Source: Desulfobulbaceae bacterium UBA5628
GTDB taxonomy: Bacteria > Desulfobacterota > Desulfobulbia > Desulfobulbales > Desulfurivibrionaceae
Reading direction: 5' to 3'
DNA length: 8,831 nucleotides
Assembly (NCBI GenBank): GCA_002421565.1
Contig: DIKC01000103.1
Location: forward strand, 1,250 to 10,080
In this document: positions 7,514 to 8,831 of the stretch, piece after piece
Numbering within the stretch: position 1 is the first letter of the stretch
Layout: every line of letters begins with the position of its first letter
The notes under the pieces: generated by a model
Database searches by the model: none
The model's input: the letters and a program-made list of their open reading frames with translations, nothing else
What the model was told of the DNA's origin: nothing
Position numbers and translations under genes: made by a program

Positions 7514-7536
7514 AGATGAAGCAGCAGGAGCAAAAG

Positions 7537-8346
7537 ATGAATTGCGGCCTCACCACTCCTTTTTGCCGGCAGAGCAGCTACCAGCAAAGCATCGACCTCT
7601 CCCGCCAGGCCAGCATTTCCCTGGTAACTGCGGAAGGCGATCTGGTCTCAATCAGCGGCAACAGCCGGGCCAGTTATGCCCTGGCCGCAGACCGGGCGAT
7701 CACCTCGGCCGGCAATCTCCAGAGCCTGACCCTGGCCGGCTTCACCCAGGAAAATTTCACGCTGCAAGTACAAGGGGATTTAAGCGAGGAGGAACTGGGG
7801 GACATCAGCCGGCTGCTGGGCGAGCTTACCGCCATTGCCGGCGATTTTTTCAACGGCGCGCCGGAAAAGGCGGTGGCCGGGGCGCTCTCCCTGGGGGATA
7901 TGGGCAGTATCAGCCGGTTGCAGGCCTCTTTTATCGAGAGCAGCACCATCATCCAGAAGAACACCGTCACGGACGCCCTCCCGGCCGCAACCGACCTCAT
8001 GGATTACCACCAGATGCTGCAGGCCCAGTGGCGGCAAATCAAGGAGTGGCTGGAAGATCGCACCGGCGAGCTGGGCAGCCCCAATCCGCCGGAAACGCCC
8101 CAAACCGGCCCGACCCAGGCCACCGCCCCGCCCTCGGAACGAATGCTGGCAAAAATCCGAGAAACAACGGCGCAACACCCCCGCCTGACCCCGTTTGCCG
8201 GCGCCTTGGGCGATCTGGCAATCCAACGGGCCGCCAAGCAAACAACCCAAAATCGGCTGGCGGAAGACCTTCAGGCCCGTTTCGCCGACCGCCTCAATCA
8301 CTGGTTATGCCCCTTAATCCATCGCCAACATCAGGAGGTTTTATGA
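7537..8346 (+). CDS. Unknown protein with a conserved-looking N-terminal domain (DUF5610-like); C-terminal tail from cassette DNA
   Basis: Function unknown. It is 269 aa with no signal peptide or membrane segment, so probably cytoplasmic. Residues 27-80 look beta-rich (ISLVTAEGDLVSISG, then SLTLAGFTQENFTLQVQGDL). Residues 85-140 look helical, with LSEEELGDISRLLGEL and DFFNG followed by ALSLG. This layout resembles, from memory and unverified, the DUF5610 type of small proteobacterial protein. Residues 181-200 are a Pro/Thr-rich linker, followed by a helical C-terminal part. ATG 7537 is preferred because AGGAG (7526-7530) lies six bases upstream; ATG 7516 is too close to its GGAG. Codons up to W256 match the GC-rich neighbours. 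Residues 257-269 fall beyond the proposed cassette boundary at 8304/8305 and may replace the native end. The stop overlaps the next ATG. The upstream FliA-like promoter hints at a motility link. Confidence 0.75.
   Translation: MNCGLTTPFCRQSSYQQSIDLSRQASISLVTAEGDLVSISGNSRASYALAADRAITSAGNLQSLTLAGFTQENFTLQVQGDLSEEELGDISRLLGELTAIAGDFFNGAPEKAVAGALSLGDMGSISRLQASFIESSTIIQKNTVTDALPAATDLMDYHQMLQAQWRQIKEWLEDRTGELGSPNPPETPQTGPTQATAPPSERMLAKIRETTAQHPRLTPFAGALGDLAIQRAAKQTTQNRLAEDLQARFADRLNHWLCPLIHRQHQEVL
8304..8311 (+). repeat. Proposed cassette left junction (GTTATGCC)
   Basis: GTTATGCC is the exact reverse complement of GGCATAAC at 8803-8810. In integron cassettes the crossover falls between G and TT of the GTTRRRY core, and the two outer core sites of one attC are near-complementary. 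So the cassette would begin at 8305, directly after codon 256 of the upstream gene. GTTATGC departs from the strict GTTRRRY consensus at one base. A chance 8-mer is unlikely but possible. Confidence 0.5.
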
Positions 8347-8786
8347 AAGTCAACACGGAATCAAATCACTTTTACACCACGCAGCGTGCACAGACCTCAA
8401 CTACGACAAGCGCCAACCCCGCATCGTTTTCGTCCGCACTATCAGCAGCCACTGCCGAAACATCTACCGTCAAACAAGCAGATTTCACCAGCATGACGCG
8501 CAAGGAAATGTTTGATTGGATGAATGACCAAATTCGTAGCGGGCAAATGTCGCTTGATGAAAGCTCACCTTTCCTGGCGATGACAATGAAAATCTCGGTG
8601 GCGACCGGTCAAACTGTCGATATGGCTACAGACACTACGCGCATTAATTTCGTTGAGAAGGCTCGTTTGGGTATTGAAGGTGCCCGCTCAAACAACGATC
8701 CAGATTTAGCCAAGCGATTACAGGCTGCGATAGAAATCATGCGCAGGCAACAAGGGCAGGCACTTGGCATTGATGCACGCGCATAA
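8343..8786 (+). CDS. Unknown protein, likely cassette-borne
   Basis: Function unknown. It is 147 aa with no signal peptide, membrane helix or recognisable catalytic motif. Residues 1-47 are rich in Ser, Thr and Ala and probably disordered. Residues 48-97 form a compact segment (DFTSMTRKEMFDWMNDQIRS, then GQMSLDESSPFLAMTMKISV). Residues 100-140 look helical (INFVEKARLGIEGA, then DPDLAKRLQAAIEIMRRQQ). The MTRKEMFDWMN core seems familiar from unannotated proteobacterial proteins, a recollection only. The start is supported by AGGAGG four bases upstream; the reading frame is open further upstream but has no better site. ATG overlaps the preceding stop (ATGA, 8343-8346), so translation may be coupled. 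Codon use (ACA, TCA, AAT, GAT, CGT, TTA) is clearly more AT-tolerant than that of all other genes here, which suggests transfer. Confidence 0.8.
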   Translation: MKVNTESNHFYTTQRAQTSTTTSANPASFSSALSAATAETSTVKQADFTSMTRKEMFDWMNDQIRSGQMSLDESSPFLAMTMKISVATGQTVDMATDTTRINFVEKARLGIEGARSNNDPDLAKRLQAAIEIMRRQQGQALGIDARA

Positions 8787-8803
8787 GGTGTGGTCACTCA
8801 TTG

Positions 8804-8831
8804 GCATAACCCGGCGCTCAACCCCGCTCCC
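8804..8831 (+). other. Partial attC-like recombination site (left half)
   Basis: GCATAAC (8804-8810) resembles the outer core site RYYYAAC with one mismatch. Six bases (CCGGCG) separate it from CTCAACC (8817-8823), which sits where the inner L box of an attC is expected. The element starts 17 bases after the stop of the preceding gene and is cut by the window edge. A full attC would continue with a variable centre, a complementary GGTTNNG-type box and a GTTATGC end. Only the left half is seen, so the call is tentative. Confidence 0.55.

Follow-up and report, generated by a model that had tools for sequence, protein, structure and literature searches.

Insertion of integron cassettes outside their usual attachment sites has long been known. 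Loot et al. (2024, Nat Microbiol 9:228-240), as cited in PMC11023631, PMC12901181, PMC12444791 and PMC12690207, named attG sites and described cassette insertion at them, and Recchia and Hall (1995), going by the title in the references of PMC10127599, an aadB cassette at a secondary site in RSF1010. A single attC lacking an integron-integrase is termed SALIN in PMC12690207, and such single-attC cases are reported by IntegronFinder 2.0 only on request, as stated in PMC9024848.

The locus described here resembles attG insertion, as those citations present it, in that a cassette is found in a chromosome at G/TT (the slash marks the crossover), at a site that is neither attI nor attC. However, the attG work was an experiment with a known integrase, whereas ours is a natural locus in a MAG, read from sequence alone, with no integrase seen. 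The aadB case, as far as its title tells, concerned a plasmid and a resistance cassette, whereas here we are dealing with a chromosome-like contig, a gene without assigned function and a gene end. As far as the assembly reaches, which on the right is 159 bases past the cassette, the locus shows a single attC and no integrase, as a SALIN does by the definition in PMC12690207; the restored end of the host gene speaks against a further attC there. The process itself is a known one (a probable single-attC SALIN, attG-type insertion), and this locus is a well-resolved natural example of it.

The window (the whole stretch of DNA that was analysed, 8,831 nucleotides) is part of contig C194 (10,270 bases) of a MAG of 1.80 Mb in 197 contigs, 60.7% complete. 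Its right end very probably carries a single cassette that interrupts a resident gene within its final codons, at 8304/8305, and that was likely inserted by an integron integrase at an attG-type site. Both G/TT boundaries and both attC halves are present, the joined flanks give a gene end typical of its family, and a near-identical cassette gene lies on an intI-bearing array contig of another genome. With the crossovers, the likely pre-insertion end, a close copy and the consequence for the host protein all readable, the locus documents off-site cassette integration in nature with unusual completeness, and it would show how cassette genes leave integrons to become ordinary chromosomal neighbours.

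Cassette boundaries and attC site

C194 runs 190 bases past the window, with 9 Ns and then CGCAGCGCCGGTTAGCTCTACGTTGCTCAGTTAAAAATCC, and the cassette ends 31 bases beyond the window, giving 558 assembled bases including the 9 N. It starts with a TTATGCC leader, followed by AGGAGG, the 147-aa ORF and then attC, with the one compact gene and the attC in the same orientation (Table 1). The G+C content of the part inside the window is 50.3%, versus 61.2% for the sequence to the left, where the lowest value among 181 windows of 527 bases was 52.2%.

Table 1. Features of the cassette locus; positions are those of the window unless marked C194.
Feature	Position	Strand	Remarks
Host ORF, 276 aa as assembled	7516..8346	+	native 7516-8304, then tail LCPLIHRQHQEVL from the cassette leader; stop codon TGA 8344-8346
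Left crossover G/TT	8304..8305	+	8304 is the target base, 8305 the first cassette base
Integron cassette, part inside the window	8305-8831	+	whole cassette C194:9554-10111
AGGAGG, likely ribosome-binding site of the cassette gene	8333..8338	+	also in L011 and L021
ATGA	8343..8346	+	cassette start codon overlapping the host ORF stop codon; predicted translational coupling
Cassette gene, 147 aa	8343..8786	+	186 homologs, no family match
attC left half	8803..8831	+	R'' GGCATAAC, spacer CCGGCG, L'' CTCAACC
Full attC model match	C194:10052-10117 (window 8803-8868)	+	N at 8832-8840

At the left junction, where the assembly is continuous, GTTATGCC (8304-8311) is complementary to R'' GGCATAAC (8803-8810) in 8/8 bases, and the latter is followed by CCGGCG and CTCAACC, just as the first-pass annotation had described. 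By itself this inverted match is weak evidence and close to chance, GTT-led inverted 8-mers spaced 300-800 bases apart occurring 3 times in the window versus a mean of 0.67 and a maximum of 2 in 30 mononucleotide shuffles. We judge the cassette to be real because of the right half of its attC, the covariance-model match and the cassette start that it has in common with other genomes. DNA similarity to loci L011 (a Betaproteobacteria MAG) and L021 (a Glaciimonas MAG) begins at 8304, with a query that reached 253 bases further left, and in both loci the cassette starts at the same G/TT. The alignments to L013 and L018 begin 13-15 bases inside this start, and those to the remaining loci begin within the gene.

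The assembly spans the right junction with the 9 Ns. The crossover lies after window position 8862, and the end reads ACG/TTGCTCAG. When aligned with L021, where a complete attC ending in CTCTACG stands directly before the cassette start, the window attC reads GGCATAAC-CCGGCG-CTCAACC...N...GCGCCGGTTAG-CTCTAC-G/TTGCTC. We had first placed this junction at G/TTAGCT inside L', a position that was dropped since L021 and the Glaciimonas attCs cross over at TACG/TT. One attC of the Glaciimonas genome agrees with the left half of the window site in 23/25 bases and with the right half in 23/24; at other places within the first 10 kb of the contig, the best matches to these halves were of 15-16 bases. 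This Glaciimonas site has 31 bases where the window attC has 9 Ns, so the true gap is probably longer than assembled. Extending the sequence to the right, as proposed at the first pass, yielded the other attC half beyond the gap. That half had been expected to end in GTTATGC; it ends in GTTGCTC instead, because the last R' belongs to the target after integration, and an expectation mis-specified in this way would have wrongly rejected the case.

A covariance model, as recommended in the same annotation, was built (R1) from an alignment (A2) of 11 attCs of beta-proteobacterial genomes, nine from the L021 genome and one each from the L011 and L012 genomes, and it replaced a home-made hairpin finder that separated real from shuffled sequence poorly. 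In the consensus of this alignment, one base of the L'' arm is unpaired, as in the known attC plan, and 4 of the 17 pairs are changed on both sides. The window attC was left out of R1 and the near-identical Glaciimonas site was included, so the match at the window site (38.9 bits with the loop missing; E 1e-6 over 23 sources and 9e-6 in the genome) partly reflects similarity to one site. With filters off, the 8 other matches on C194 all scored 10.3 bits or less. The site has the layout R''-L''-L'-R' with the unpaired L''-arm base, its loop being absent from the assembly. Folding, also suggested at the first pass, counts rather against the site: the two halves cofold at -14.9 versus a shuffle mean of -11.2 (22/500 mononucleotide shuffles as low), which is only moderately better than shuffles and by itself not convincing, and the pairing is of CCGGCGC with GCGCCGG and not of L'' with L'. 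R1, a model of one attC type, found no second attC on C194, whose known sequence extends 159 bases past the cassette on the right; within the same right-hand limit the assembled contig has one attC, against the at least two clustered attCs without intI that make up a CALIN.

Runs of N were seen inside or next to attC half-sites in two independent MAGs (L008, 10081-10089; L120, 2340-2353 and 4924-4994), so that attC scanners may miss such sites. The present locus would show how assembly gaps at attC hairpins hide such cases from these scanners.

The interrupted gene

Homologs of the host ORF were present in 33 of the 58 genomes searched, its own included. As assembled, the host frame enters the cassette leader in a phase that stays open up to the TGA overlapping the cassette ATG, and 13 new C-terminal residues replace LLS. 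The resulting tail, LCPLIHRQHQEVL, was found in 0/13 homolog ends read. When C194:9553 is joined to 10112 in a script, the protein instead ends in ...ARFADRLNHWLLS followed by a stop codon. This joined end, RLNHWLLS and stop, can be set beside those of the three closest homologs, RLNDWLLA in G010 and G003 and RLDRWLLS in G012, each again followed by the stop. Seven of the 13 homologs end within four residues after the conserved W, and 6/13 extend further than LLS. Eight other homologs came from a large protein set, and the three that were fetched end in DWLLT, DWLLA and DWLLSA.

The restoration of a family-typical C-terminus with its stop codon supports both crossovers, and the natural, homolog-like end given by the joined flanks identifies the end of a resident gene as the target. 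The window genome is the only member of its genus among the relatives drawn, and the continuity of the host sequence without the cassette is seen from the joined flanks set against other species. The predicted empty target reads CACTGG/TTGCTCAGTTAA. The earlier claim that the cassette was inserted where a chromosomal gene has its 3' end stands on these joined flanks, and the comparison with relatives that had been advised for it agrees, the tail being foreign to all ends read and the closest three homologs ending naturally.

On the opposite strand, the right flank encodes the end of a protein, ...KPQDIIPMDDDDFEDF and stop. In G004, a gene running towards the homolog has an end that resembles this one (62.5% over 16 residues, E 6e-4). 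G001 also has a similar convergent end, recognized by eye only, in a gene for a methyl-accepting chemotaxis protein (PF00015, E 7e-43). The corresponding convergent place in G012 is occupied by a match to PF00015 that falls below its cut-off. Because similar convergent genes end beside the homologs, the right flank is likely host DNA.

Through the insertion, the start codon of the cassette gene would have come to overlap the stop codon of the host ORF, forming the ATGA. The compact gene with its own AGGAGG, already recognized at the first pass (Table 1), is predicted to be co-transcribed with the host gene and is probably translationally coupled to it via this overlap. One could go further and propose that the stop codons of resident genes are natural docking and expression sites for stray cassettes, the host gene being spared, the cassette translated immediately through an ATGA overlap, and lone cassettes turning into new operon members in lineages that, like the present one, have no resident integron. 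We consider this generalization rather doubtful.

The cassette gene and its relatives

The cassette protein has 186 matches at E <= 0.001 (120 of them listed), and none was obtained in searches of Pfam, NCBIfam, PHROGs, GenBank phage and IMG/VR. Five plasmid records match it, each at less than 60% identity, one of which was seen in context. Rfam gave 3 matches, all far below gathering scores. The structure model, made with an alignment of 41 of the 186 homologs, was poor (mean pLDDT 50.2), and a profile search of solved structures returned 4 weak matches at E <= 1, the best at 0.015 and all of them designed proteins. The dN/dS of the gene was 0.03-0.20 in four comparisons, one of them over 49 codons only, so the protein must be under selection somewhere.

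Homologs of the gene were located in 12 loci of a species-level genome collection. Among the 395 genomes drawn from the phylum, it was found in one, its own; two relatives (L015 and L018) are from Desulfogranum japonicum, which was presumably not among the genomes drawn. The closest cassette DNA is that of L012, in a Rhodocyclaceae MAG, with 97.0% identity over 338 bases and 9 silent and 1 replacement differences from the window gene. The 5,332-base contig of L012 (also L120) carries intI at 482-1423 (476 bits, cut-off 265; one internal TAG) and attC model matches at 2194, 2308, 2866 and 4023. The gene copy is partial, lying at the contig end and cut by an N gap and that end, and the 97% identical gene, intI and attC matches thus occur together on one contig. 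This integrase-bearing array contig with its close copy belongs to another phylum.

Proteins of the same family at 65-80% identity were also noted in Verrucomicrobia, Marinobacterium, Arcobacter and Desulfogranum (L013, L014, L016 and L018; MAGs or isolates). This spread is very wide for one cassette gene.

Integrase search and alternative explanations

No integron integrase over the cut-off of 265 bits was found in the window's own genome (60.7% complete), where the model gave six stretches on three contigs, the best of 112 bits; C194 itself yielded stretches of 83 and 42 bits. These six sub-cut-off stretches are probably XerC/XerD-type recombinases. No intI was thus found beside the cassette, where a complete integron would have one together with attI. 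The first-pass annotation had seen no integrase or earlier attC to the left, and this held for the contig, on which nothing exceeded the cut-off and R1 gave no second attC; the genome-wide intI search that it had advised came out negative as well, but the incompleteness of the assembly means that absence from the organism is not established. An integrase may sit in the unassembled part, and integrases over the cut-off occur in 109 of the 193 genomes of the order that were searched, including three from the same family (G003, G010 and G014). Another member of the order, G524, has intI at coordinates and with a score and E-value identical to those in the Desulfogranum japonicum genome of L015, and the order is therefore probably Desulfobulbales. 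Around the integrase genes of G010 and G014 (L070 and L071), an imperfect palindrome of ~96 bases, AGACAGAATTGG...CAATTCTGTGTATTATTTGG, is conserved in both.

The model that we favor is one where an integron integrase would have recombined the folded attC of the cassette with a chromosomal secondary (attG-type) site. The junctions point to IntI as the enzyme, which may have acted in trans, either from an unassembled part of the genome or from a gene since lost, and the cassette may have come from a proteobacterial donor. The locus could instead be all that is left of an earlier integron, or of a cluster of several cassettes, that lost intI, attI and the other cassettes. Clusters and integrons do exist in the family, with R1 matches at E <= 0.1 in 21 of 38 family genomes, the window's own included, and several of the inspected family loci carry more than one attC. 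However, the decay of an integron would leave traces at the junction, be it attI, another attC or remains of intI, whereas here the two flanks fit together to the base as one complete gene end, which would leave no room for attI. The natural ends of the homologs in G003, G010 and G012 count partly against such a remnant as well, and we find it very unlikely.

An assembly or scaffolding artefact, by which this MAG acquired a proteobacterial cassette belonging to another community member, is in our judgement about as unlikely. The N gap at the right junction and the Rhodocyclaceae origin of the closest cassette DNA would fit such a join, but the left junction is continuous, and there are two contigs on record with the fused host protein (P0121), of which the longer, at 12,051 bases, exceeds C194. 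The right flank, moreover, supplies the host gene with an end typical of its family, and the convergent gene on it is host-like. As for the notion that an ordinary gene merely happens to lie within a chance inverted repeat, the near-chance frequency of the 8-base match is what speaks for it; contradicted by the attC and model matches, by the cassette start common to other genomes and by the rarity of the gene in the phylum, it deserves next to no credence.

Other candidate loci in the family

The only other R1 match at E <= 0.1 in the same genome is at C140:10273-10345 (22.4 bits, E 0.097), an attC-like hairpin after a 115-aa ORF (L153, G000:C140 9878-10345). Here, G/TTAGGTT at 9878 matches R'' AACCTAAC in 8/8 bases. 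No integrase-like stretch was found on the contig, and no Pfam family was assigned to the 115-aa protein, which has 115 relatives; eight of these carry organism names, six of which we take to be gamma-proteobacterial. The presence of a pair of lone cassettes in a single partial genome would be consistent with integration in trans, the C140 case being the weaker. The C140 candidate attC is immediately followed by genes for a nucleotidyltransferase (PF01909) and a HepT-like protein (PF01934; L152, 3052-3703), an arrangement that resembles the MntA/HepT toxin-antitoxin pair.

The R1 matches in 21 of 38 genomes, with 5 of them on 5 contigs in G006, which has no integrase match near the cut-off, had raised the possibility that single cassettes are scattered throughout the family, but this was not upheld as such after 20 loci had been inspected. 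L138 and L150 each have a second good R1 match, and among 13 loci whose left sides were viewed, L144, L148, L149 and L150 come, by eye, after another attC-like hairpin. G013 gave no integrase match near the cut-off. Its locus L141 and L136 of G002 have in common a stretch of 181 bases, 87% identical, that ends in GATAATATTATT/GTT before different first cassettes and may be attI.
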